Shown here one piece after another: positions 148 to 25,392 of a stretch of DNA of 26,966 bases. The DNA lies in IMG/VR virus record IMGVR_UViG_3300042564_000529, positions 1 through 26,966 of that record. One strand, 5' to 3'. The translations under genes were made by a program, and so were the position numbers. Positions within the stretch are counted from its first letter, which is position 1, and each line of letters starts with the position of its first letter. The notes under the pieces are model-generated. The model saw nothing but the letters and a program-made list of their open reading frames with translations. It was not told the DNA's origin and made no database searches. This DNA is from a virus.

Positions 148-761
148 GCTGATACCTTGCTCCTTAGATAGTCGTACCCTTGCGATAGGTACATTGAATT
201 AACATCTTCACCGTCTGGCATCTGCAGTGTTACTACTGACGAGAGTTCTTTGGCGAGGTTCTTTGCGAAGTCCGACCCTGGTTGGTCACCGTCAGCAAAA
301 ACATAGACCGTCTCAAAGTCTTGGAGGATGCGTGAGTAATGTTTCTTCCACGAGTTCGCACCAGGTACACCCACAGCAGGGATACCACACTTGTAATGCA
401 AAGTAATTGCATCAATCTCACCCTCACATACCGCAATGTAATCTCCTGCTGATTGTAGTGCTGTTACATTGTATAGACGGGTAGAAGTCCCTGGTAAACC
501 CATGTATTTGGGTTCACTGTTGTCCATGCTACGGAACCTGATGTCAACCACACCTGTTGGTGTGATGTACGGAATAACCAAGCGACCAACGTATGCCTCG
601 TGACTAGGTAGAGGTTCTGCGACTACTCCGAGGTGGGCTGTAGCCCCGTCTTCTAGAGATAATCCCCTCTTTGCTAGGTACCCTTCGGCTAGATGAATGT
701 TTGCCTTGTATGTTGCCACGGCTTTCGCCAGTGATGCCTTCTGCGATTGTGATAGCCTCAC
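144..761 (-). CDS. Toprim domain of DnaG-type primase (separate gene or second half of a split primase)
   Basis: This frame carries the catalytic Toprim fold of DnaG-type primases, which make RNA primers at the replication fork. Motifs (numbered from a longer reading that begins with TTG at 833): the conserved glutamate in CEGEID around residues 136-141, the acidic DGD at 181-183, and the typical late motif MPDGEDVNSMYL near 205. A YLAKRGL segment near 52 matches the linker after the zinc domain. I chose the GTG at 761 because GAAGGAG lies nine bases upstream (777-771); the TTG at 833 and ATG at 824 lack a ribosome site. The frame overlaps the CHC2 zinc-finger frame (604-975) in a +1 relation. 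Together the two frames make one normal primase N-terminal half, so this is either reinitiation, a programmed +1 shift or an indel. The fold assignment is firm; the expression mode is not. Confidence 0.8.
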   Translation of the reverse strand: MRLSQSQKASLAKAVATYKANIHLAEGYLAKRGLSLEDGATAHLGVVAEPLPSHEAYVGRLVIPYITPTGVVDIRFRSMDNSEPKYMGLPGTSTRLYNVTALQSAGDYIAVCEGEIDAITLHYKCGIPAVGVPGANSWKKHYSRILQDFETVYVFADGDQPGSDFAKNLAKELSSVVTLQMPDGEDVNSMYLSQGYDYLRSKVSA

Positions 762-975
762 GGAATCCAACTCCTTCTTTTTCCATAATAATTTTATAGG
801 TGTCACCCTTAACTCCGCAAGCATGACACGCAAATATGTTTTCTGTTACGTTGACACTAGCAGATGCAGTTGAATCCTCGTGAACTACACACTTTATCTT
901 CTGCCAGCCCCATGTTTCACGTATGTTTGTAGCACCGTAGTGTTCAAGCACAGGTTGTATGCTGTGCTTTTCCAT
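604..975 (-). CDS. CHC2 zinc-finger domain of DnaG-type primase
   Basis: This is the N-terminal zinc-binding domain of bacterial or phage primase, which recognises the template initiation site. The ligands are C29-X2-H32-X17-C50-X2-C53, followed by GVKGDTYKIIMEKEGVGFREAI, typical of CHC2 domains, up to about residue 85. From there to the stop (residues about 86-123) the sequence turns Ser/Arg-rich and looks like out-of-frame translation, while the +1 frame carries the expected continuation into Toprim. The start ATG overlaps the stop of the upstream resolvase-like gene as TAATG (977-973). The gene therefore codes for the zinc domain plus either a non-functional tail or, after a frameshift around 715-740, a full primase. 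Confidence 0.8.
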   Translation of the reverse strand: MEKHSIQPVLEHYGATNIRETWGWQKIKCVVHEDSTASASVNVTENIFACHACGVKGDTYKIIMEKEGVGFREAITIAEGITGESRGNIQGKHSSSRRVPSKEGIISRRRGYSPPRSSRRTST

Positions 976-4819: not shown

Positions 4820-5005
4820 TCATAGGCTACCTAGTACCTCCTCCTCTAGCAATGCACCTTGCATTGTAAACATCAAGCGTTCAAACGTCTCACGTTTCAT
4901 AAAGAAATGCGTATTACCCAGAAAGATTGACGCACTATCAGCCTCAACCTCTACGTGTATCTCCTCGTATACGTCTGACTCTTTCTCAACTGTACTGATT
5001 ACCAT
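4820..5005 (-). CDS. Hypothetical small acidic protein
   Basis: 61 residues, acidic in the first half (VEKESDVYEEIHVEVEADSA) and more hydrophobic in the second (RLMFTMQGALLEEEVLGSL). No family recognised. Its ATG overlaps the WhiB stop as TAATG (5007-5003), so it is probably co-translated with WhiB. The pattern of alternating strands then a helix suggests a small alpha/beta fold. Confidence 0.6.
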   Translation of the reverse strand: MVISTVEKESDVYEEIHVEVEADSASIFLGNTHFFMKRETFERLMFTMQGALLEEEVLGSL

Positions 5006-5292
5006 TACTTCTTAGTCCAATCATTCTCTGGTAGATTTAATCTAATGTTTAGTTTGTTGCGGATGACACGTCTTTCATACGGTGTAGTGCCACCCCAGAA
5101 ACCATACTTCTCGTGCTTGATAGCGTAGTCTGCACACTCAACCAAGATGTTACAGTTGGAGCAAAACTCTTTTAAGTCTGCAACCTCCTGCGCTGTGGTC
5201 TTGTTGTCATAGTCCTGATAGAACACATCAACACCCATACGTGCACAGTTCTGTGTGCCGTCATAGTTTGGATACTTAATCTCACTCCTCAT
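5005..5292 (-). CDS. whiB: WhiB-family Fe-S transcription factor
   Basis: A 95-residue WhiB-like protein: four cysteines, C16, C44, C47 and C53, in the C-Xn-C-X2-C-X5-C pattern that holds a 4Fe-4S cluster, then YGFWGGTTPYERR (residues 63-75), the G-[VIF]-W-G-G turn that contacts the sigma factor, followed by a basic C-terminal segment. WhiB proteins bind region 4 of the primary sigma factor and modulate host promoters; phage copies can repress host whiB genes or steer host transcription. The start has AGGTGG about seven bases upstream. It is the best evidence here for an actinobacterial host. Confidence 0.92.
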   Translation of the reverse strand: MRSEIKYPNYDGTQNCARMGVDVFYQDYDNKTTAQEVADLKEFCSNCNILVECADYAIKHEKYGFWGGTTPYERRVIRNKLNIRLNLPENDWTKK

Positions 5293-6097: not shown

Positions 6098-6212
6098 TGT
6101 TCATACCTCCTCTGATTACAATGTATTCGTCATACGTTTCGTCACTTGCCATACGCACCATTAGTTCGTCTAGTCGTGCGAATACGTCTTGCTCTCGCTT
6201 GAATAGTTTCAT
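6090..6212 (-). CDS. Hypothetical small protein
   Basis: 40 residues (MKLFKREQDVFARLDELMVR and a short acidic tail), largely helical. Its ATG at 6212 overlaps the stop of the 74-residue gene as TAATG, with GGAGG just upstream (GGAGGAAATGTAATG). It overlaps the next gene by 8 bases. No function can be assigned. Confidence 0.55.
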   Translation of the reverse strand: MKLFKREQDVFARLDELMVRMASDETYDEYIVIRGGMNNG

Positions 6213-6436
6213 TACATTTCCTCCATACTATTTTCTTTAAGGATTACGGCTAACGCATCCTCCATTTTTAGGTAAATCTCTTTATGTATTGGGTAGTCAG
6301 GGTCATCAGGGTAAATCCATTCCTGTATCTCGCTGTCATAGAATAACCTGTCGTTTAAGTCTTGCACCGTATCAACATCAACTTGCCATTGTTCGGTACT
6401 TGAATCGTACATAACTACGTATTGGTATTGCGCCAT
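6212..6436 (-). CDS. Hypothetical small protein
   Basis: 74 residues with an N-terminal beta strand (YQYVVMYDSSTEQWQVDV) and an acidic helical C-terminus (KMEDALAVILKENSMEEM). Coupled on both sides by TAATG overlaps (6438-6434 and 6214-6210), with AGGAGG ahead of the start. Unknown function. Confidence 0.6.
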   Translation of the reverse strand: MAQYQYVVMYDSSTEQWQVDVDTVQDLNDRLFYDSEIQEWIYPDDPDYPIHKEIYLKMEDALAVILKENSMEEM

Positions 6437-6522
6437 TATTTTTCCTCCTGTTTAACGTCACACCCATTGAGAGCATGACTATCTAATGTATTCCAACACT
6501 TAACGCATAGTTCTTTTATCAT
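6436..6522 (-). CDS. 28-residue zinc-finger microprotein, paralogue of the gene at 7477-7623
   Basis: The peptide MIKELCVKCWNTLDSHALNG, then CDVKQEEK, has C6, C9, H16 and C21 in a C-X2-C-X6-H-X4-C pattern. The first 21 residues are nearly the same as the start of the 48-residue gene at 7477-7623 (M-I-R-E-L-C-V-K-C-W-N-T). A good ribosome site (GGAGG) precedes the ATG at 6522 and the stop overlaps the next gene as TAATG. Confidence 0.65.
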   Translation of the reverse strand: MIKELCVKCWNTLDSHALNGCDVKQEEK

Positions 6523-6539
6523 TGTGTTACCTCCATAAC

Positions 6540-7191: not shown

Positions 7192-7298
7192 TTGTAGAAC
7201 ATAAGCACGATAATCCCTGCACTTGCTACCAAGCAGGTCAGGGCGATTAAGTTGCTACCTAACCGCCGTGCCCTAGGTGTCCAGTTCCAATCTCTCAC
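7179..7298 (-). CDS. Small single-pass membrane protein
   Basis: 39 residues starting with GTG at 7298, overlapping the preceding stop as GTGA, with GGAGG upstream. A basic, Trp-containing N-terminus (RDWNWTPRARRLG) is followed by a hydrophobic helix (LIALTCLVASAGIIVLMFY) and a short tail. The positive-inside rule would put the N-terminus in the cytoplasm. Unknown role. Confidence 0.6.
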   Translation of the reverse strand: MRDWNWTPRARRLGSNLIALTCLVASAGIIVLMFYKITE

Positions 7299-7480
7299 GG
7301 CGTTACCTCCACTCTAAAATCCTCCACCGTTGCCGTACCGTGCCCGTGTAAGGGCGTTACGACATACCGTGTACGTCCATAGGCTTGCTTTACGTCCATA
7401 ATCCTGACGGCTACCCGTAGCCCGTTAGTTTCTAGTAATCCTTCACGCCCTAGTGGGTGTGCCAGTTCCTTGATGCTCAT
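7295..7480 (-). CDS. Hypothetical small protein
   Basis: 61 residues, beta-rich (LETNGLRVAVRIMDVKQAYG, then RTRYVVTPLHGHGTATVEDF), likely a small barrel or SH3-like fold, by eye only. The start at 7480 is preferred to an upstream ATG at 7531 because it overlaps the stop of the preceding zinc-finger gene as ATGA and has GGTGAAGG upstream. No family recognised. Confidence 0.6.
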   Translation of the reverse strand: MSIKELAHPLGREGLLETNGLRVAVRIMDVKQAYGRTRYVVTPLHGHGTATVEDFRVEVTP

Positions 7481-7623
7481 ACCTTCACCGCCCCCGTGCA
7501 TTCGGCACACTTGCGGTATGAATTGCCACAAGATAGCGAGGATTCAAGCGGTTCGGCGCAACAGCCGTACAGAGCGTGACTTGCTACCGTGTTCCAGCAC
7601 TTAACGCATAGTTCTCTAATCAT
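7477..7623 (-). CDS. 48-residue Cys-rich zinc-finger protein, paralogue of the gene at 6436-6522
   Basis: It begins MIRELCVKCWNTVASHALYG and continues with further cysteines: C6, C9, H16, C21, C22, C32, C39 and C42, enough for two zinc sites, the last being CAEC. The N-terminal 21 residues duplicate those of the 28-residue gene about 1 kb downstream; the C-terminal 27 residues are extra. Coupled to the upstream gene by TAATG and to the next by ATGA. Confidence 0.65.
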   Translation of the reverse strand: MIRELCVKCWNTVASHALYGCCAEPLESSLSCGNSYRKCAECTGAVKV

Positions 7624-7763
7624 TAGTTACGCTCCTCTAGTGCCTCTAGTTCGGTGGCTATCCAGTCAATAACCTGACTGGCAGACATTGACCAGCCTCC
7701 AAACTTTTCATAAGCCCCGTCTAGCACCTCTTGAATAGTTGCGTATTCTGTATCTTCTTGCAT
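7623..7763 (-). CDS. Hypothetical small acidic protein
   Basis: 46 residues (MQEDTEYATIQEVLDGAYEK, then a helix ending TELEALEERN). Acidic and helical. TATGGAGG lies upstream of the ATG at 7763. First gene after a hairpin-bearing gap. Unknown function. Confidence 0.6.
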   Translation of the reverse strand: MQEDTEYATIQEVLDGAYEKFGGWSMSASQVIDWIATELEALEERN

Positions 7764-7789
7764 TGCTGTACCTCCATACAGTTTCTATC

Positions 7790-7838
7790 TGGCTAAGGTT
7801 TAGCCAAGCCCTCCCCCGTACCCGTGAACACGGGGGAG
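7790..7838. repeat. Two strong hairpins in the gap after the ArdA-like gene
   Basis: CTCCCCCGT (7811-7819) pairs with ACGGGGGAG (7830-7838), a 9-bp stem with a 10-base loop; TGGCTAA (7790-7796) pairs with TTAGCCA (7800-7806), a 7-bp stem with a 3-base loop. They occupy most of the 93-base gap 7764-7856. No U-run follows on either strand. Confidence 0.6.
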
Positions 7839-7856
7839 AGTCAAGCCCCTTAGAGT

Positions 7857-8207
7857 CTAGCGGTTGAAGAAGTAGAACCCGTCAGAACTCCACACGTCCC
7901 CACCGAGTTCTAAATCACGCCCATACTTTTCATAGTCAAAGTAGAACCGCAATTCGCCCAGTATCTCTACATCAATGATGCCCAGTTCCTCCATTCGGCA
8001 ACCTAGCCACTCTTGGTAGTTCCACCCCTCCGCCTCGCCTATGTAGGCATCTACCGCATCATCAATCCATTGGGCTATTTCGTCCCAGTCGTTGTTCATG
8101 TTGCCCCAGTAGGCGAGAATTGCACGGGTTGGGATTCCGTAATCATTGGCGAATTGTTCCGCCTCGTCTAGTTGGGTGATTGCTGTCATCTCTAGATTCG
8201 TTGTCAT
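7857..8207 (-). CDS. ardA: ArdA-like antirestriction protein, short form
   Basis: A 116-residue, strongly acidic protein (25 Asp/Glu against 6 Lys/Arg). Its C-terminal part, YFDYEKYGRDLELGGD at 89-104 followed by GFYFFNR, and DAYIGEAEGW near 53-62, match the signature regions of ArdA proteins. ArdA mimics bent B-form DNA and blocks type I restriction enzymes. Usual ArdA proteins are about 165-170 residues with three domains; this one seems to lack the N-terminal domain and keep the middle and C-terminal ones. AAGGAGG before the ATG supports this start, so it is not merely mis-started. Early expression of an antirestriction protein fits its place near the origin-proximal end. Confidence 0.75.
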   Translation of the reverse strand: MTTNLEMTAITQLDEAEQFANDYGIPTRAILAYWGNMNNDWDEIAQWIDDAVDAYIGEAEGWNYQEWLGCRMEELGIIDVEILGELRFYFDYEKYGRDLELGGDVWSSDGFYFFNR

Positions 8208-8228
8208 TGTCTTTCCTCCTTGTTTCTT

Positions 8229-8270
8229 GGGGCTAGTTACCCCGTCCCGTCCCCCTCCCGAAAGAGGGGG
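8229..8270. repeat. GC-rich hairpins upstream of the ArdA-like gene
   Basis: CCCCCTC (8251-8257) pairs with GAGGGGG (8264-8270) around a 6-base loop, and GGGG (8229-8232) can pair with CCCC (8240-8243). Both lie in the 77-base gap between the 61-residue gene and the ArdA-like start. Could be a partial terminator or a processing site setting ArdA mRNA apart. Confidence 0.5.
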
Positions 8271-8284
8271 GCGAGGCGTACCAA

Positions 8285-8470
8285 CTAGTCTTGTGTTATT
8301 GCGGTTACGTTTACCCTGCGCATTGTCTGGCTAGTAATGACACACGCTAAGCATGAACAATGGGCAACCGTAACTACTTGCCCGTACTTTTCGTAAAGTT
8401 CAGTTAAGTCGTGAACCTTTAGCCCGTCAATGTCTAGCCACTTTCTGCCCTCTATGTCGTGTGTATTCAT
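8285..8470 (-). CDS. Hypothetical small protein
   Basis: 61 residues, with GLKVHDLTELYEKYGQVVTV followed by AHCSCLAC, a Cys/His cluster (H42, C43, C45, C48 roughly) that might bind metal. GGGAGG precedes the ATG at 8470. Second gene of the leftward operon. No family recognised. Confidence 0.6.
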   Translation of the reverse strand: MNTHDIEGRKWLDIDGLKVHDLTELYEKYGQVVTVAHCSCLACVITSQTMRRVNVTAITQD

Positions 8471-8474
8471 TGCC

Positions 8475-8630
8475 CTACGCCTCCCAATGGTAACTAGTGA
8501 TGTCTAACGTTTCTTCATTGTCTGCCTGTAAGAATAGTCTAATTTCATTGTGTATTTCGTCCAACGTCATTTCATTATCTGCCCGATAATTGAACTCTAA
8601 CGTGAGCGGAATTCTCACCGTGTAAATCAT
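8475..8630 (-). CDS. Hypothetical small protein, first gene of the leftward operon
   Basis: 51 residues (MIYTVRIPLTLEFNYRADNE, then a helix and an acidic strand ending SYHWEA). ACGGAGG lies upstream of the ATG at 8630. It is the most origin-proximal leftward gene, so probably among the earliest transcribed. The fold looks alpha/beta; no family recognised. Confidence 0.6.
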   Translation of the reverse strand: MIYTVRIPLTLEFNYRADNEMTLDEIHNEIRLFLQADNEETLDITSYHWEA

Positions 8631-8690
8631 TTCTTACCTCCGTTTATCTGTCGGGGCTTATCCCTGACAAGAACAAGTAGAGCAGACAAA

Positions 8691-8745
8691 GGTTAACAGG
8701 AGGTTAATTACAGGTGAACAACAGGTGAACAGTTGGTGAACAATA
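8691..8745 (+). repeat. Five tandem 11-bp iterons
   Basis: Contiguous 11-mers begin at 8691, 8702, 8713, 8724 and 8735: GGTTAACAGGA, GGTTAATTACA, GGTGAACAACA, GGTGAACAGTT and GGTGAACAATA. The core is GGT[TG]AACA. They lie between the first leftward gene and the DnaA boxes, so they may serve as initiator-binding iterons, as an operator for the leftward operon, or both. Confidence 0.8.
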
Positions 8746-8915
8746 ATCCACAGGTGAGGCACAGTTATCCACAGGGAGACTGTACACCGCCAACAATTAG
8801 TTAAACTTTCAACCATTTAACTTTCAATAGTTTAATTTTCAACTACCTGTGGGGGTAGGGATTGGATACACTTTGTCCACAACCTTATCCACACCTGTGT
8901 ATAACCTGTGGATAA
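8744..8915. other. Probable replication origin: DnaA-box cluster
   Basis: DnaA boxes (TTATCCACA): perfect copies at 8765-8773 and 8885-8893 (plus) and 8907-8915 (minus); one-mismatch copies at 8744-8752 (TAATCCACA), 8873-8881 (TTGTCCACA) and 8896-8904 (minus, TTATACACA). Four of the six fall within 43 bases. With the flanking 11-bp iterons (8691-8745), three 15-bp AT-rich repeats (8801-8845) and the AT-rich stretch 8941-9112, this has the parts of a bacterial-type origin. It lies exactly where transcription of the two arms diverges. It implies use of host DnaA, since no phage initiator is evident here. Confidence 0.75.
8801..8845 (+). repeat. Three 15-bp AT-rich direct repeats inside the origin
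   Basis: TTTCAA recurs at 8807, 8822 and 8837 with an exact 15-base period, inside units TTAAACTTTCAACCA, TTTAACTTTCAATAG and TTTAATTTTCAACTA. They sit between two groups of DnaA boxes. They may be unwinding-element repeats like the AT-rich 13-mers of bacterial origins, or sites for another initiator. Confidence 0.7.
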
Positions 8916-9055
8916 CCTATGACCCCCAGTTGTTAAGGGACGGCTCGTTATTATATATAGACTCCCATTAAATATTTTTTCCAGTATTTTGGTAATAGGC
9001 ACACAATATAAAACCCATTGGATAAAGGACTTTAAAAATAGTTTATAACAATTTG

Positions 9056-9084
9056 GTAACGAAACGTTACAGTCCCTTTGTAAC
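9056..9084. promoter_or_regulatory. Operator-like palindrome next to the late promoter
   Basis: GTAACGAAACGTTAC (9056-9070) is a perfect inverted repeat of GTAACG about a 3-base centre. A further GTAAC at 9080-9084 forms a second inverted pair with GTTAC at 9066-9070. The sites lie immediately upstream of and over the predicted -35 (9078-9083), a position suited to a regulator of the late operon. Confidence 0.5.
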
Positions 9085-9106
9085 AGGGTTAGTATATATG
9101 TAGGAT
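9078..9106 (+). promoter_or_regulatory. Candidate promoter for the late operon
   Basis: TTGTAA (9078-9083), a 17-base spacer and TAGGAT (9101-9106) give a plausible sigma70-type promoter with a start near 9113, just ahead of four tandem hairpins and about 180 bases before terminase. Match to consensus is moderate, so activation by a phage factor is possible. Confidence 0.4.
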
Positions 9107-9118
9107 AAAATAACATAA

Positions 9119-9220
9119 GTGCGCTTTGGCGCACACAACCTAATGGCAGCCTTTGTGGCTGCCTTTAACAACCTAAAGCAGCCCTTTGGGGGCTGCTATT
9201 ATGAGCGCCTTTCGGCGCTC
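9119..9220 (+). repeat. Four tandem hairpins in the late-operon leader
   Basis: Within 102 bases: GTGCGC/GCGCAC (9119-9124, 9129-9134), GGCAGCC/GGCTGCC (9145-9151, 9157-9163), AGCAGCC/GGCTGCT (9177-9183, 9191-9197) and GAGCGCC/GGCGCTC (9203-9209, 9214-9220). Stems are 6-7 bp, every loop contains CTTT or TTT, and hairpins 2 and 3 share AGCC-type arms. No gene overlaps. Possible roles: stacked terminators read through late in infection, antitermination RNA, or 5' mRNA protection. Confidence 0.75.
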
Positions 9221-9292
9221 TTATATTAAGTTCTTTATATCATTTTATTACGAGATGATATTAGGTGAATGCTTTAGACAGGATAACTTCAT

Positions 9293-11179
9293 ATGGCAGC
9301 CAAGGGCGGTGCAGAGCACCATAATGTGGTACGCCTGAGAGAAGACAAGTCCAAGGTTATAGCCCACGTAGAAAATGGCATTGAGGTGCGAGCCGCCATT
9401 GCCATGGTCGGTCGCAAGCCCGATGTTCTAAAGAAGTGGCTCACAGACCCTGTGTTTGCCAAAGACCTAGAGATAGCACGCACCAAGGGTTCAGACCTAA
9501 TGAAGGTCACGCTAGGTACCGAAAACGGCAAGAAGATAGACTTCGCCACATTCTCCAAAGAGTTCTTAGGTAATGAAGTATTCCCTCACCAGCAGGACTG
9601 GATTGACGTTCTGGAGGGAAGGGAGCCTAGTTGGCTTCATCCAGCCATGTCCTATGAAAAGGGCAACAAGAACCGTATCTTAATTAATGTGCCACCTGAG
9701 CACGCCAAATCCACCGTAATCACCGTAGGCTATAGCACCTATCGTATTGCCATGGATTCCAACGTACGTATCATTGTGGTGTCCAAGACTTTAAATAAAG
9801 CCCGTGAGTTCGTCTATTCCATCAAGCAACGCCTATCCCACCCACGCTACGCCAAGTTGCAGCAGGTCTATGGACCTTCTGGTGGCTGGAAAGAAGACTC
9901 TGACACCTGGAAAACCGACACAGTTTACTTAGGTCAAGAAGCCCGTGATAGTTCTGAAAAGGACCCTACGCTTCAGGCGCTAGGTATTGGTGGTCAGATT
10001 TACGGTGCTCGTGCTGACCTGATTATCCTAGATGACGTTATCACTACTGCCAACGCCCACGAGTGGGAGAAGCAGTTAGACTGGCTTCAGAAGGAAGTAA
10101 TCACCCGTCTGGGTAAGAACGGCAAGTTACTTATAGTAGGCACCCGTATCGGTGCTGTAGATTTATACCGAGAACTCCGCAATCCAGAACACTGGTCTGG
10201 TGGTGCAAGCCCGTTTACACGCCTTGCTATGCCAGCCGCTTTAGAAGTTCACGATGACCCTAAGAAGTGGGTTACTCTCTGGGAGCGCTCAGACCGTCCT
10301 TGGGATGGTGACGAGGATGCCAAGCCAGATGAAGATGGTTATTACCAGAAATGGGATGGACCAGCACTCTTTGCAAGACGTAGCGAGGTGACTGCCTCAA
10401 CATGGGCACTAGTTTACCAGCAACAGGACATTGACGATGACGCAATTTTTAATCCAACGATTGTTAACGCCTGTGTTAATCGTATGCGTAAACCTGGTCC
10501 TCTCCGTGTGGGAGCGGCTGGACATCCACGAGACGGACAATGGGTCACACTAATTGGCATGGACCCTGCTATGGCAGGAAAGACTGCGTTAGTTGTCTAT
10601 GCGATTGACCGTCAGTCTGGTAAGCGTCTAGTCCTAGATGCCTACAACATGTCAGACCCTACCCCAGGTAAGATTCGTGCAATCATTGAAGACTGGATTA
10701 ACACCTACAAGCCAGTAGAACTGCGTATTGAAATCAACGCCCACCAGAAGATGTACGAGGTGGACGAAGAGTTCCGCCAGTATCTGGCTAATAAGGGTGT
10801 TAGATTCTCTAGCCACTTCACTGGCAAGAACAAGTGGGACACTGACTTCGGTGTGGCTGCTATGCAAGGCTTGTTCGGTACTATGACAAGCAACAAGCAC
10901 AACCGAGATAACCTCATTGAACTACCAGACCCTCAGTACCACGAGGGTATCAAGGCTCTAATCAATCAGTTGATTACTTGGAAGCCTGGAACTCGCAATC
11001 CTACAGACGTTGTTATGGCTCTGTGGTTCTGCGAGATTAAAGCCAAGGAAATGATTCAGCACTCTGGAAATCAAATCTGGCACGCAACTAGCCGCTTTGT
11101 TACTCAACGACAGATGGCAAAGCAAGCAGTTGTTAATCTTGACGATTTAGCAATGGAACAATTTACAACTTATCTTTAA
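9293..11179 (+). CDS. terL: Terminase large subunit
   Basis: A 628-residue DNA-packaging motor. ATPase: a Walker A variant, NVPPEHAKST, at 132-141; Walker B, LIILDD, at 243-248; a coupling motif, LLIVGTRIG, at 279-287. Nuclease (RNase H-like): GMDPAMAGKT with the first Asp, RIEINAHQ, and the last Asp in NPTDVVMALW. The first 65 residues contain NGIEVRAAIAMVGRKPDVLK, which resembles a helix-turn-helix of the kind found in small terminase subunits, and no separate small-subunit gene is visible. It is the first gene of the rightward operon; AGGAT about nine bases upstream is the likely ribosome site. Confidence 0.93.
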   Translation: MAAKGGAEHHNVVRLREDKSKVIAHVENGIEVRAAIAMVGRKPDVLKKWLTDPVFAKDLEIARTKGSDLMKVTLGTENGKKIDFATFSKEFLGNEVFPHQQDWIDVLEGREPSWLHPAMSYEKGNKNRILINVPPEHAKSTVITVGYSTYRIAMDSNVRIIVVSKTLNKAREFVYSIKQRLSHPRYAKLQQVYGPSGGWKEDSDTWKTDTVYLGQEARDSSEKDPTLQALGIGGQIYGARADLIILDDVITTANAHEWEKQLDWLQKEVITRLGKNGKLLIVGTRIGAVDLYRELRNPEHWSGGASPFTRLAMPAALEVHDDPKKWVTLWERSDRPWDGDEDAKPDEDGYYQKWDGPALFARRSEVTASTWALVYQQQDIDDDAIFNPTIVNACVNRMRKPGPLRVGAAGHPRDGQWVTLIGMDPAMAGKTALVVYAIDRQSGKRLVLDAYNMSDPTPGKIRAIIEDWINTYKPVELRIEINAHQKMYEVDEEFRQYLANKGVRFSSHFTGKNKWDTDFGVAAMQGLFGTMTSNKHNRDNLIELPDPQYHEGIKALINQLITWKPGTRNPTDVVMALWFCEIKAKEMIQHSGNQIWHATSRFVTQRQMAKQAVVNLDDLAMEQFTTYL

Positions 11180-13948: not shown

Positions 13949-14120
13949 AGATATTGCAGCGTTTACCAATGTATTTGGTGTTGAAGACGCTGACTTTGTT
14001 ATGACAATGGCAACCATCCCATGGAAATCGGAAGATGACCGAAATGGTTTTATTAACGAAATCATTGACATGAACAATGGTGCGTTGTATATGAATTATC
14101 CCGATGAGGAAGGTGCCTAG
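13935..14120 (+). CDS. Hypothetical small protein in the head cassette
   Basis: 61 residues (MQLARDIAAFTNVFGVEDAD and an acidic end, NYPDEEGA), helical. It overlaps the preceding gene by 14 bases and the next by one base (TAGTG). A small adaptor or assembly factor is possible by position; nothing more can be said. Confidence 0.6.
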   Translation: MQLARDIAAFTNVFGVEDADFVMTMATIPWKSEDDRNGFINEIIDMNNGALYMNYPDEEGA

Positions 14121-17100
14121 TGTCGTTATTTGATATTACAGCACCACAAAAACAAAATCTTTCTCAACGTTTAATTAGTGGTCTTGCTCAAAGCATTTCT
14201 GGCATGGGTAAAGGCTTAGGATTTATAAGTTCTGGGGCTACCTCTGGATTAACTTCGCAATACGCAGGAACTAAAACTGCAGCCGCTGGTGTTGATACGT
14301 CAAAGATTATTCCTCAACTAACTCAAACTTCAGAAATTGCTATTGACACAGAAATTGGAGTAGCAAATGAAAAATTACTCTACCCATATCGTCAGTTTGT
14401 AGCAAGACCAGTATCAACTGCACTACTTGTGGCTAACGAAAGTTACCAACAGCAGAAGATAAACAAAACATACGGAGTAACTACTCCAGATGTTGGTGGA
14501 TTTTTAGGAACTGCATTTAATGTAGCAACTTCTGGTATTGACCTAGCCTCTTCATACCAAGATATAGACCTATGGAAGTCAGCATGGCTTGATGCTCGCA
14601 ATGTTTCACCAGGTCAAGCCTACGTTAGTTACATTGGTTCACGTATAGACGGTACTCAGGGCACAGATAAACTTGATTACACGAATAAAGATGAAGTTCA
14701 CGCATACTTCAGTCGTGGTCCACAAAAATACATTTCATGGGGTATTGATACAACCTTAGCAGTTGGTGCAGACCCTATAGCGCTGGCTGGTGGTGCAGCA
14801 GGTTCAGCAGCACGCAAACTTGTTACAGTTCCACTAACCAAAAAGAACATGTTTAAGGTATCTTCTAATATAGATGCTGCTACTGCTGGAACCGTAAACA
14901 ACTGGTCACCACTTATTGGTCTTGTTCGTGAAGTTGCGGATGAGCCAAACGGAATTGAATACGTTCTTGCACACACAATGGTTGCTGGAAACGTACCACT
15001 TGCTAATGAACTAATAATAGCAGGTCGCATTGCAAATGAAACTGGCGATGCAACTCGTCTTGGTCAGGTACTAAAAGTTTCTATTGGTGACTCAAAGACT
15101 ATTGATGATTTAATCTATGCTGACTATGTTTACGCTTCAGATATTGCAATCTTAAATAATGAGTCAGCATTTATTCGTGATTCAATTGCAAACTTAGACA
15201 TTAGATTCTCTGCAGAAACTACCGCTATTCCTGAGATGATTGTCAAGCAACGTGAAGCCATGGTAAAACAGGCTGAACGTTTAACTGAAGAAGCAAAGCA
15301 ACTACAGACTCAGCAAAAAATAGTAAACGAGATTGTCCAAGAAACTCCAGTTGGCTCAATTCAGCGCCAAACTGTTTCTCCGTTTATGGCTATTGAACGT
15401 GCTCGTGTCAAGAATGCAGTTAACTACATCAATGGCTACTGGGGAACTGAACAGGTTGGTCCATTTACAAAGGTTCTTCACTATTTAAACCCATCCACTA
15501 GATTAAAGGAAGCACCATCAGGTGCTGCCACTATCGGTGGTATTGCTGGTGATAGTTCAAACCTAGAGTTTAATGCCCGTGTACGTCTATGGGGCAAGTT
15601 AACTGGCAAGAGTGCTGATGTTCAAATGCGCTTTGGTGCTATGTACGCAAGCAACCTTGATAAGGGTGCACGCTTAAAGTTAATGAAAGACTTTGACGAA
15701 AAGTCAATGGTTGATGTAATTGTTAAACGTGTCGTAATTGATTCGGGCATGACCAAAGACGAACAGAAGATTGCCCTAGAAGTTGCTAAGGTAATTGGTA
15801 AAGAAAGTCGCAAGCATCGTGACAATATGATGCTTCAGGCTTTAGAAACTAACTACACCATTAATGATGGTAGTGGTTCAACTATTCTTATTAAGTTTTT
15901 GCAGGACCAAGTTGATGCTATTGCTGCTGATATTGCACGCAAGACTCGTGGTCCTGGTGCAGAAATAACAGATAATGATATTACTCTTGCTAAACAACAA
16001 GTTAGTGATGACTTCCGTGATGTTCCAGCACGTACGGCACAAATTCAAAACGTTCACTTTGGTGTTGACTTAAGAGATTTTGATGGCAGAATTGCTGAAA
16101 ATGTTGGACTAATTAGAAGCATAGTAAACGAAATTGCTAACAATCCTGCATACAGTAACAGAAGTGATTACAAGAAAATCGTTGAAGAGTTCTCCAAATG
16201 GAAATCTGGAGAGATGTTATTCAGCGATAAGGTAGCATCTTTAGTTGATGCATCAGCACGCCGCCGTGGTAAAGATAGATTAGTTGATGGTCTTGACTTC
16301 TTGTACACAGATATCTGGAAGCCAACTACTCTTGCCTCTTTACATTACACAAGTCGTAACGTAACTGAAGGATGGGGGCGTGTACTAGCAGTAACATCGG
16401 AAGTACACCGAGATACTGGTATGCCGTTTACTGAAATCCTAAAGTCAACATATGACGAAGGAGTTATAAGACGCATATTTGGCAATAGGGCTGTAATCCG
16501 TGATGAAAAAAATGCAAAGGCTTTAATTAATAGAAGTCGTATTGAACTTATTGGAGAACAAAGCAAGGCTAATAATGCGGTAGCAGATGCGGTATACAAT
16601 TCAAACGATTCCTTGTTCGCTTCATACACAGAAGGATTAGTTGCAGCAGATAACATTGCAACAGTTTACGCTAACTCAACAGCATACAAGGGTATCGTTG
16701 ACCAAATGCGTAACATGCCATACCGTTTTGCAACAACTGATAATGTTCCTAAAAACATAAATGGCGAACTGTTTGAAAAGTTTGTATCTGGAGATATGCC
16801 TGGTGCTTTCCAGATACTAGCCAGTGCTGAACAGCCGTACATCCTAGAGACTATGGCTGCGTTACAGTCAAAGGTACGTAGAGAACTAGACTTGATAGAC
16901 ACCATCTTTGCAAGTCCTGAGTACACTAACTTACCAGCAGGAATGCAGGATGACTTGTGGCGCACTAATTTAATGTTAGCACAAATGGATTCATCTATTC
17001 AGGGATTGAGCGCAGCAGCATTGGCTAAGGCTAGTGTTCGCAATGAAGTTGAAACTTTAACTCGTAAGACAGATGTTCTTGGTAATATTAAGAAGTCTGG

Positions 17101-19816
17101 CGAAGGTGAATTTGAACTTATTCCTGGATTACTTATGTCACCAGATTCTTTTGCTGGACCTATTGGTGCAATCATGCGTAAAGAATCATCTGCTGCCCTG
17201 TCAGGCGCAGCCACTGTATTCAACTTAAGTCGCTCATCAATGAACAGCATCCTAAATGGAAACGTTAAGCGTGGTATTGTTAATCCTCTAGACAATGCTG
17301 GAACACAGAATCCACTATGGGCTAACGTTGCCGCAGATTACGCTAACCGTCAGATGCGTGACATTGCTTCACAAAAGTTTATTGGTTTAAATCCTAAGAA
17401 CGAAGAAGACTTAAACACTGTAATTTCTTGGGCTAAATCAAGTGACCCTGCCGCAGTCCGCTGGCGCAATGAAATGTCAGAGGTTATAGATAACCTAAAG
17501 CGTACTAGCAACGACCCTATTGAAGTGTTAATTCGTGAAGATGCAATGTTCATTGAAGCAACTCTTCCAAACTATGGTATTGATGGTCGTGTTATCTCTC
17601 CTCTGCGTGATGTAGATGGCAACTTAATTTATACAGAGGCTGGAAAGCGCATCCCTGGCACCAACGTTATTGCCGAAGAATCAGGACAACTTATTCCTGG
17701 TCTACGTCAGAAGGCGCTTAAGGGTGAACTTACAGTTGATGACATGCTTGAGATTCCTGAAATGCAGCGTGCTTCAGTTAACGGTGCTATTGCCGAAAAG
17801 AGTAACGCAAGTCTTTGGAAGAAACTAACAAACTCAATGTTTAAGTGGATTGGTTCACTTCCTGAAGATACGTTTGTTCGTCATCCATTTTACCGTGCTA
17901 TGTATCAAACAGAACAACGCCGCATTGGTCAGATGTGGTTAGCCCAAGGTAAAAGTGTTGACTACATAAACGCACGTATTGATGTATTGCAGGATTCTGC
18001 ACATAGGTTTGCCTATAAGCAAACAATGGAACGTTTGTATTCAGTACAACGTAAGACTGACCCAGGTGAAACTTGGAGATTCGTCTCACCATTCTACATG
18101 GCTAAGCAAAACTCAAATCGTTTTTGGTTTGGATACGCCATGCGCAATCCACAATACGTAGGTAGACACCTCTTAATGTGGACAGCACCAGGTCGTGTAT
18201 TTGATGTTGAGAATGAAAATGGCGAAGACGTATCAGGTGTTAATCCACTGTTCTCTGAGGGTGTAAAGGCAAAGATTACCATTCCAAATGGCATGGCTGA
18301 TGCACTTAATATCCCAAGAGATTCTCGTTTAGAGTCACAATTATCTTCATGGGACCTTGTTAACAACGGTTACTTACCATTCGTTCCTGAGGCTGGTGGA
18401 CCTGTATTTGATTACAGTGCCTCTTGGTTATTTAACTATGCTTCAGGTAAACCGTGGGACCCAGAACTGTTGCTAATCAAGATGGGTATGGACCCAGAGA
18501 TGGTTAGAAAAATTATAGCACCTTATGTTGGCAAGGCTCCTAGCACTGAATCACGTGAAGCAATCTTTAATTTATACTTGAATCCTAATGCTTGGATGCG
18601 TTCTTTGCTTGCTCCTTTGGCAACTGTGCCAGTTATCAGTGACATAACCGAGATACTTGACCCAACTGCTATTGACCGTTTTGGTAACAGAACTATCAAG
18701 AATTTTAAGATGCTATATGAACAGTGGACACAGGGACAACCATATAACGAAGAACTAAACACTTCCCAGCAGCAAGATAAAATTGCTGAGATGTATTCTG
18801 AGGCTGCAGGTTATGCAATTCAGGAACAGTTATGGGAATCTTTGTGGTCGTTCGGTCCAACAGTTGGCAATGTAAAGATTGAAGATTACGCAAATCGTAA
18901 GGCTTCTGAATTAAGAGTATATCGTTCACGCTTTGGATATGATGAAGGAACTCTTAAGTTTATTCAGGAAAATACAAAGTACAATGAGGCTGGTGAAATC
19001 ATCTCCTACGGAACATATACTTTGTCAACTGCCGAAGGTAGCAACAATGAAGCCAATCCATTTGGTGTTGCTGGAACTCCTCAGACAGTTCGTGGAATTG
19101 TTCAAAATAAAGAACTTTGGGATAAGGTTTCTAGTATTGAGGCTGGTTCAGACAATGCTCCAGACAATAAGATTCTCGGTTCCATGTTCAATCAGGGAGA
19201 CCGAAACAAGGACTACAGCCAAACGGCTAACAATAAGTTATATTCACTTAATGTAAAGCGCAAAGTTAAGCAAACTGCTGCAGAAAAGAATGCCATTGCA
19301 GTTGACTTTGGAACCGATGAATACTTTGCAATCCTTGATTCTTACGAAGCCAAGGCTGAGGCTGCTGGTATTGAAGTTGGCTCAAAGGCTTACAAGGCTG
19401 CATATAAAGAAGATATTGATGCTGACGTTGAAGCACTAGCAAAGCGTAATCCACTTTGGTACCGTGAAAGTGGAACCATTAACTTGCGTAAGGCTGACAA
19501 CAACGTCAATGCCGTTCTTAACGTTCTTGAGGACCAGACATTCCTTGATACAGTTGGAAAGAATAATAAACTTATTGAGGCTATTCATTCTTACATGCTG
19601 TACCGTAAGCCTTTAGTTGAACAACGCTTAGCAATTTCAGATGACCCAGATACGGACATCTACAGAGCGAATAAATACGCAGGGCTTGTTGAAGATAAAG
19701 ATGAAATTGCGGCTTCAATTTCCGAGCAAGTCCCAGAGTTTGCAAACTTCTACAAGTATTACTTGAGAAGAGACCCATTGTTTAGTGATAGAGAAATTGC
19801 GGAGTATAGAAAATAA
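14120..19816 (+). CDS. Giant (1898-residue) virion protein, probable DNA-ejection/internal virion protein
   Basis: The largest gene of the window, starting with GTG at 14120 in a TAGTG overlap. The N-terminal 130 residues are Gly/Ser/Ala-rich and hydrophobic in places; a coiled-coil-like stretch (KQREAMVKQAERLTEEAKQL) lies near 375-405. The rest is mostly helical and has two Trp/Arg/aromatic segments, TDIWKPTTLASLHYTSRNVT around 735 and GETWRFVSPFYMAKQNSNRF around 1315-1335, of a type seen in very large podoviral inner proteins. No enzymatic motif is obvious. Its position between portal and scaffold, not after tail-tube genes, argues against a siphoviral tape measure. I infer an internal core or ejection protein that leaves the head with the DNA. 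Confidence 0.65.
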   Translation: MSLFDITAPQKQNLSQRLISGLAQSISGMGKGLGFISSGATSGLTSQYAGTKTAAAGVDTSKIIPQLTQTSEIAIDTEIGVANEKLLYPYRQFVARPVSTALLVANESYQQQKINKTYGVTTPDVGGFLGTAFNVATSGIDLASSYQDIDLWKSAWLDARNVSPGQAYVSYIGSRIDGTQGTDKLDYTNKDEVHAYFSRGPQKYISWGIDTTLAVGADPIALAGGAAGSAARKLVTVPLTKKNMFKVSSNIDAATAGTVNNWSPLIGLVREVADEPNGIEYVLAHTMVAGNVPLANELIIAGRIANETGDATRLGQVLKVSIGDSKTIDDLIYADYVYASDIAILNNESAFIRDSIANLDIRFSAETTAIPEMIVKQREAMVKQAERLTEEAKQLQTQQKIVNEIVQETPVGSIQRQTVSPFMAIERARVKNAVNYINGYWGTEQVGPFTKVLHYLNPSTRLKEAPSGAATIGGIAGDSSNLEFNARVRLWGKLTGKSADVQMRFGAMYASNLDKGARLKLMKDFDEKSMVDVIVKRVVIDSGMTKDEQKIALEVAKVIGKESRKHRDNMMLQALETNYTINDGSGSTILIKFLQDQVDAIAADIARKTRGPGAEITDNDITLAKQQVSDDFRDVPARTAQIQNVHFGVDLRDFDGRIAENVGLIRSIVNEIANNPAYSNRSDYKKIVEEFSKWKSGEMLFSDKVASLVDASARRRGKDRLVDGLDFLYTDIWKPTTLASLHYTSRNVTEGWGRVLAVTSEVHRDTGMPFTEILKSTYDEGVIRRIFGNRAVIRDEKNAKALINRSRIELIGEQSKANNAVADAVYNSNDSLFASYTEGLVAADNIATVYANSTAYKGIVDQMRNMPYRFATTDNVPKNINGELFEKFVSGDMPGAFQILASAEQPYILETMAALQSKVRRELDLIDTIFASPEYTNLPAGMQDDLWRTNLMLAQMDSSIQGLSAAALAKASVRNEVETLTRKTDVLGNIKKSGEGEFELIPGLLMSPDSFAGPIGAIMRKESSAALSGAATVFNLSRSSMNSILNGNVKRGIVNPLDNAGTQNPLWANVAADYANRQMRDIASQKFIGLNPKNEEDLNTVISWAKSSDPAAVRWRNEMSEVIDNLKRTSNDPIEVLIREDAMFIEATLPNYGIDGRVISPLRDVDGNLIYTEAGKRIPGTNVIAEESGQLIPGLRQKALKGELTVDDMLEIPEMQRASVNGAIAEKSNASLWKKLTNSMFKWIGSLPEDTFVRHPFYRAMYQTEQRRIGQMWLAQGKSVDYINARIDVLQDSAHRFAYKQTMERLYSVQRKTDPGETWRFVSPFYMAKQNSNRFWFGYAMRNPQYVGRHLLMWTAPGRVFDVENENGEDVSGVNPLFSEGVKAKITIPNGMADALNIPRDSRLESQLSSWDLVNNGYLPFVPEAGGPVFDYSASWLFNYASGKPWDPELLLIKMGMDPEMVRKIIAPYVGKAPSTESREAIFNLYLNPNAWMRSLLAPLATVPVISDITEILDPTAIDRFGNRTIKNFKMLYEQWTQGQPYNEELNTSQQQDKIAEMYSEAAGYAIQEQLWESLWSFGPTVGNVKIEDYANRKASELRVYRSRFGYDEGTLKFIQENTKYNEAGEIISYGTYTLSTAEGSNNEANPFGVAGTPQTVRGIVQNKELWDKVSSIEAGSDNAPDNKILGSMFNQGDRNKDYSQTANNKLYSLNVKRKVKQTAAEKNAIAVDFGTDEYFAILDSYEAKAEAAGIEVGSKAYKAAYKEDIDADVEALAKRNPLWYRESGTINLRKADNNVNAVLNVLEDQTFLDTVGKNNKLIEAIHSYMLYRKPLVEQRLAISDDPDTDIYRANKYAGLVEDKDEIAASISEQVPEFANFYKYYLRRDPLFSDREIAEYRK

Positions 19817-24089: not shown

Positions 24090-25392
<1,303 letters not shown>

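Follow-up and report, generated by a model that had tools for sequence, protein, structure and literature searches.

ArdA proteins are typically 166-177 aa long (PMC3906837), and the locus described here raises the question of whether a much shorter phage protein that resembles only the later part of ArdA is a DNA mimic in its own right, one half of a split protein, or a remnant. The gene lies in IMGVR_UViG_3300042564_000529, a whole viral record of 26,966 bases that we refer to throughout as the window.

The leftward arm of the window encodes a primase, a DnaB-like helicase, an exonuclease, and a resolvase, and the rightward arm a terminase, a portal, and a major head protein. The nearest deposited phages are the 'Ca. 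Planktophila' phages E7 (OX376640, a cultured Nanopelagicales phage) and F5 (OX376641), with identities of 71% for the head protein and 54% for the terminase; Streptomyces phages come next. The window also carries a WhiB gene (5292..5005; PF02467, E 1.2e-11), and WhiB is reported in all members of the E7/F5 family (PMC10202952). Relatedness to these phages together with the WhiB gene therefore identifies the window as an actinophage, as a sequence-only reading of the locus had supposed, and a freshwater origin is most likely.

Several features elsewhere in the window are recorded here in passing. A 1898-aa protein (14120-19816, +) drew a blank in Pfam at E 0.01, and its only PHROG match is to a family without assigned function; judged by its position, it is probably a virion protein. 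Long GPT/GST-type repeats characterize a collagen-like protein (24415-25392, +). A 64-nt direct repeat is found at 6460-6523 and 7561-7624 in copies that are 80% identical, each beginning a short peptide, MI(K/R)ELCVKCWNT, when read on the minus strand, and two copies of a similar repeat occur in L007.

An ArdA homolog without domain 1

The short ardA gene is read from the minus strand (8207..7857, Table 1); plus-strand frame 1 across the same span contains stops. Its product, counted from the ATG, has 25 acidic and 6 basic residues for a net charge of -19, matching the value first estimated for it. Many ArdA proteins of 166-177 aa have net charges of -22 to -29 (PMC3906837), and the same published lengths show that the window protein, at 116 aa, was correctly described as about 50 residues shorter than usual. 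The strong ribosome site proposed at its start is also present, with GGAGG ahead of the ATG, and GGAGG followed by xAAGA is common to the window and to the related loci L003 and L004.

Table 1. Features at and around the short ardA gene of the window
Feature	Position	Strand	Basis or remark
Short ArdA-like protein, 116 aa	7857..8207	-	ORF, Pfam ArdA, PHROG 2059, 2w82, syntenic orthologs L003/L004
Ribosome-binding site AAGGAGGAAAGACA	8208..8221	-	direct reading; precedes the ardA ATG
Two short hairpins, ardA leader	8229..8275	-	stability no better than chance
Stable GC-rich hairpin	7790..7856	-	fold; directly 3′ of the ardA stop
Upstream small ORF, 61 aa	8285..8470	-	no likeness to ArdA domain 1
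Large terminase subunit	9293..11179	+	phrog_38, E 1.5e-59; landmark, one flank of the slot
Conserved 78-aa ORF	7295..7531	-	landmark, opposite flank of the slot; homolog in 8 of 10 leader-bearing contigs

Predicted folding of the whole ardA leader (8284..8208) gives -30.1 kcal/mol (z -1.21), a value at least matched by 24 of 200 shuffles, and that of the GC-rich hairpin beyond the stop gives -33.5 kcal/mol (z -3.15; 3 of 200 shuffles equally low). The latter is not among the predicted terminator-like sites. No sigma-70 promoter stands out for ardA, with one promoter-like site in 7200-9300 versus 3.1 in shuffles, and Rfam returned nothing above gathering scores in the four sources searched.

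Homology to ArdA is found by three routes, all confined to the equivalents of domains 2 and 3; the sequence-only reading had named middle and C-terminal signatures. The Pfam ArdA profile (PF07275) matches the protein with E 4.9e-6 over profile positions 63-151 of 155, its 27.7 bits barely above the cut-off of 27, and gives a single match of 29.6 bits in a search of the whole record. The anti-restriction family phrog_2059 matches with E 5.6e-11 (profile 78-170 of 181). Among PDB sequences, the Tn916 ORF18 ArdA (2w82) matches with E 0.0017 over its residues 121-157, the significant match being confined to 38 residues near the C-terminus of the window protein. Here YFDYEKYGRDL (window residues 89-99) aligns with YIDYQAYGRDL of 2w82. 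The two proteins have in common the C-terminal motif Y-x-D-Y-x-x-Y-G-R-D-L as well as domains 2 and 3 and an acidic character, and differ by the absence of domain 1, some 50 residues, from the window protein. The motif is invariant in 28 aligned sequences, partly by construction because most of them were retrieved by it. A full-length ArdA, that of L001, is 38% identical to the window protein in alignment. At E<=1 the window protein has five PHROG matches, none of them to an Ocr-like family, and PADLOC gave no match at E<=1.

The window protein does not span all three ArdA domains, as Pfam profile positions 1-62 have no match; like the small ArdA proteins of the sArdC kind, it is instead short, here 116 aa, and resembles ArdA in its C-terminal part only, here Pfam 63-151. 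In ORF18, domain 2 spans residues 62-103 (PMC3969726), and alignment suggests that window residues from about 1 to 54 correspond to domain 2 and residues 55-116 to domain 3.

The predicted fold is consistent with this assignment. AlphaFold gave a poor monomer model from 3 sequences (pLDDT 54.6), and from 28 aligned sequences, an input that includes ArdA sequences, a model with a mean pLDDT of 84.3. Foldseek placed 2w82 first with this model (E 0.076, probability 0.94, TM 0.52 by query), with no match at E 0.001 or better. VIA-align over the Foldseek list also ranked the ArdA structure first, over 105 residues (2w82 residues 59-164; rmsd 3.7, Z 5.7), tied in Z with an unrelated chain in the second row (5.4) that covers only 45 residues. 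These values are modest alone, and they agree with the sequence evidence for domains 2 and 3.

A six-frame search of the window with our own domain 1 profile revealed no such domain: the top score, 5.7 bits (E 4.5), fell on another ORF 1.4 kb away, and nothing was reported at E<=5 in the 123 nt by which the open frame extends 5′ of the ardA ATG. The upstream 61-aa ORF was likewise silent with this profile and has no Pfam match above cut-off and no PHROG match at E<=0.1. We therefore reject an N-terminal domain in an adjoining frame. The Pfam ArdA profile likewise matched the whole record only once. In these searches no first domain was found, in agreement with the original claim.

The distant ORF would matter if ArdA were split in this phage, the window protein being one half and domain 1 coming from another phage gene as an sArdN-like partner. 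This acidic 74-aa ORF (6436..6212) is the best domain 1 candidate by our own profile, scoring 5.7 bits in the window and 7.0-8.3 bits in relatives, but none of the corresponding E-values (0.3 to 4.5) reaches significance, and the Pfam ArdA profile does not match it at E<=10. Direct comparison with domain 1 by hhalign gave a probability of 2.2%, with an E-value of 0.022 that applies to a single comparison, and on this basis the ORF was rejected as a split domain 1. Furthermore, it is kept (92% over 51 residues) on the L283 contig, where the ardA position is occupied by an Ocr-like gene instead. We regard a split ArdA as extremely improbable.

As an observation in its own right, the 74-aa ORF (6212-6436, -) is conserved at 10 viral loci with 64-95% identity, with no significant family match.

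Conservation and distribution of the short form

Syntenic orthologs of the window protein are present on two contigs (L003 and L004), at 77% and 62% identity, and the terminases of these contigs are 96% and 97% identical to that of the window. Both orthologs have the start and length of the window protein, the short ArdA proteins of the two closest relatives have net charges of -21 and -20, and pairwise dN/dS of the short ardA gene is 0.33-0.48 (three pairs, two methods). Judged from these comparisons, the short form is no assembly accident, since its start is common to two syntenic relatives and dN/dS lies in this range.

A more distant counterpart is encoded by phage E7. Its 116-aa protein (773..423 in OX376640) adjoins the terminase and is the sole ArdA match in the record (Pfam ArdA E 9.7e-9, profile 76-153 of 155). 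It resembles the window protein in length, in lacking domain 1, and in lying by the large terminase gene of a related actinophage (terminase 54% identical); it is distant enough in sequence for a tblastn search of the phage collection to miss it at E 0.01 when the window protein is the query, and its upstream ORF is 59 aa. An E7 protein was annotated in 2023 as an anti-restriction protein homologous to ORF18, its length going unremarked in the available text (PMC10202952); we take it to be this 116-aa protein because the record holds no other ArdA match.

Used as a tblastn query at E 0.01, the window protein has no close relative in deposited phages or plasmids. Other short forms used as queries matched 68, 3, and 48 phage records, and the ArdA gene was full length (168-185 aa) in all five of those that were inspected.

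Whether other short ArdA forms exist, a point raised by the sequence-only reading, was examined in viral contigs. Three DNA-motif scans yielded 43, 34, and 85 stretches, of which 80 of the 85 in the third were taken; among the matches listed, this gave 157 loci, of which 156 encode the protein motif within an open reading frame. By our own profile, built partly from the same sequences, domain 1 is present in 133 and absent in 23 of these 156 loci among the matches listed, a set that by design holds motif-keeping proteins only. Complete forms without domain 1 account for 13 of the 156 loci among the matches listed (L011, L015, L023, L024, L038, L046, L072, L075, L104, L148, L151, L161, and L166) and represent 11 distinct proteins of 103-125 aa, lengths that depend on a starting methionine chosen by eye. 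L011 and L024 share their contigs with L003 and L004. The remaining 10 of the 23 comprise long proteins (L036, L125, L156), ambiguous proteins of about 155 aa (L084, L091, L133), and four proteins cut by a contig end (L073, L102, L129, L164). In 12 short-form records, E7 included, the Pfam ArdA profile gave one match per record and none before profile position 45; in a full-length control record the match spans 1-145.

A search of six short-form contigs with the window terminase gave matches of 96-97% on two and of 27% on one, and none on the other three, which are possibly fragments. The short form therefore occurs in more than one phage group. A single origin of the phage short forms was examined by trees. 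In a tree of domains 2-3 (139 rows), the 13 short rows lie on one side of a branch (bootstrap 89, not settled; SH-aLRT only 10). Shuffles required a mean of 12.6 changes, and none of 500 was as low as observed; short rows were trimmed from their own start and full rows from a point 90 residues ahead of the motif, a difference that may favor such grouping. When domain 3 is used alone (138 rows), the best tree has 7 changes, and the AU test does not reject a single clade (p-AU 0.306).

Short forms were also sought in bacteria. Domain 1 is present by our own profile in 75 of the best 80 of 260 relatives on bacterial genome contigs and absent in 5, which may be frameshifts. ArdA occurs in 6 of 396 Actinomycetota genomes, one of these being the search centre chosen for having ArdA; none of the 396 carries a C-terminal-only form, as five of the matches start from the first profile position and the sixth, a weak one, covers 14-119. 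A scan of bacterial genome contigs with the window protein alone gave 22 stretches, none of them confirmed.

Several lines of evidence argue against the short gene being a decaying or truncated ardA on its way to loss. First, length and start are the same in L003 and L004, the ribosome site is kept, and dN/dS is 0.33-0.48. Second, complete short forms are found on other, more distant contigs. The missing domain 1 would itself fit decay, as would the related phage F5, where our search of 13 kb did not detect an ArdA-like frame (best E 1.9) and which is also reported to be without this gene (PMC10202952). Taken together, we consider decay highly unlikely.

A variable slot behind a three-hairpin leader

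In relatives of the window, the stretch between the terminase and the conserved 78-aa ORF is a variable slot. The short ardA gene of L003 and L004 is preceded there by a leader with three small hairpins, from which the window's own ardA leader differs. On contig 3300008113_008228 (L187, the same contig as L283), a near-identical leader is followed by a different acidic protein of 107 aa (1429-1752, +), with 23 acidic and 4 basic residues. This protein matches phrog_2568, 'ocr-like anti-restriction', weakly (E 1.3e-5), a PHROG that was also matched in 1 of 14 control genomes; it has no Pfam match above cut-off and no PDB match at E<=10.

A scan requiring two of the three hairpins returned 10 stretches on 10 contigs (those of L011, L024, L283, and L284-L290). 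The first ORF 3′ of the leader encodes a short ArdA on two of these contigs, an Ocr-like protein on three, an 83-aa phrog_871 protein on two, an acidic 73-aa protein on one, and a 51-aa ORF on one, with no assignment on the last. On 8 of these 10 contigs the leader is flanked by the terminase and the 78-aa ORF, and on the other two the 78-aa ORF is absent from the sequence examined.

Across 7 distinct leaders, all 114 of 114 pair cells are standard and three pairs are changed on both sides. The covariation score was reached by none of 500 shuffles, and slid versions of the structure pair at 30-38%; this control is lenient, because the same sequences served to draw the structure and hairpins 2 and 3 were largely prescribed by the scan pattern. 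A leader with compensatory changes thus stands ahead of several unrelated small ORFs in the slot, where it could exert translational or antitermination control.

A broader picture of these phages can be offered tentatively, as possible but less than likely. They may have a two-domain ArdA lineage of their own, of single origin, together with a swap slot of freshwater actinophages by the terminase, in which unrelated DNA mimics (short ArdA or Ocr-like) are exchanged, and the gene in residence, whatever it is, is controlled by a conserved RNA leader of three hairpins in front of it.

Predicted function of the short ArdA

We consider it probable that the window protein is an ArdA-type DNA mimic that lost domain 1, or never had it, and acts against a type I methyltransferase. 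Homology to ArdA, the missing domain, the acidic charge, conservation, and synteny are observed directly; early expression, dimerization, target, and activity are what we infer from them. The protein would retain domain 2, which is helical, and domain 3, which is acidic, and would be made early as a product of the leftward arm. A dimer held together by domain 3 would form an acidic arc, shorter than that of full ArdA, which would occupy the DNA groove of the host type I methyltransferase core, made up of one S subunit and two M subunits, and thereby keep phage DNA out.

Published work on ORF18 gives this model its expected consequences. The ORF18 dimer interface is formed by domain 3, and interface mutants in this domain lose anti-modification while mostly keeping antirestriction; domains 1 and 2 were inferred to face HsdR, and antirestriction was assigned to them (PMC3906837). 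Because of this published split, the short ArdA is expected to have good anti-modification activity and, relative to full ArdA, weaker or altered antirestriction; loss of domain 1 could cost activity, since antirestriction was assigned to domains 1 and 2 (PMC3906837).

Known small proteins offer further comparison. Relief of type I restriction by small ArdA proteins of either end (sArdN and sArdC) was reported in 2025; sArdC was shown to act against both restriction and methylation, and a dimer of it on EcoKI was predicted (PMC12548430). Like the window protein, sArdC of Lactococcus cremoris is an acidic C-terminal ArdA part without domain 1; it comes from bacterial chromosomes, and its length is 114 aa in the text of that report (PMC12548430). 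Its published primers, however, put the YGRD aspartate at residue 40, against residue 98 in the window protein, so by our own reading the tested sArdC begins inside domain 3 and has no domain 2 (PMC12548430). The label of a minimal DNA mimic, given by the sequence-only reading, is therefore fair for the window protein but not unique to it, as a C-terminal ArdA part such as sArdC can be active (PMC12548430). T7 Ocr is likewise a small anti-restriction DNA mimic, a homodimer of 116 residues (PMC4872106), and Ocr-like matches occur in the slot of relatives and not in the window.

An ArdA-derived mimic might instead be aimed at some other protein that binds DNA, for instance a transcription regulator of the host or a different defence complex. 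A promoter repressed by AllR is opened by sArdC and by R64 ArdA, with direct AllR binding shown for ArdA (PMC13300388), and short forms keep the acidic surface while losing a part tied to HsdR (PMC3906837). However, sArdC as tested alleviates type I restriction (PMC12548430), and the Ocr-like anti-restriction match in the slot on three contigs suggests restriction as the shared target. We thus judge a different target unlikely, although less so than a decaying or split gene, and favor a mimic directed at the type I methyltransferase.

The activity of small ArdA proteins and the annotation of the E7 protein are already published. In the literature searched, mostly open-access, we found no description of a phage ArdA lacking domain 1 only, or of the swap slot, and what seems new is a phage ArdA that keeps domains 2 and 3, together with its slot setting.

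These findings point to the domain-1-less ArdA as a maintained phage form. It may serve as a natural test of how the ArdA domains divide their work, with antirestriction through domains 1 and 2 and anti-modification through domain 3. Furthermore, the swap slot, with its short ArdA and Ocr-like genes, may indicate where more genes against restriction can be sought in phages that infect freshwater Actinobacteria, an abundant group.
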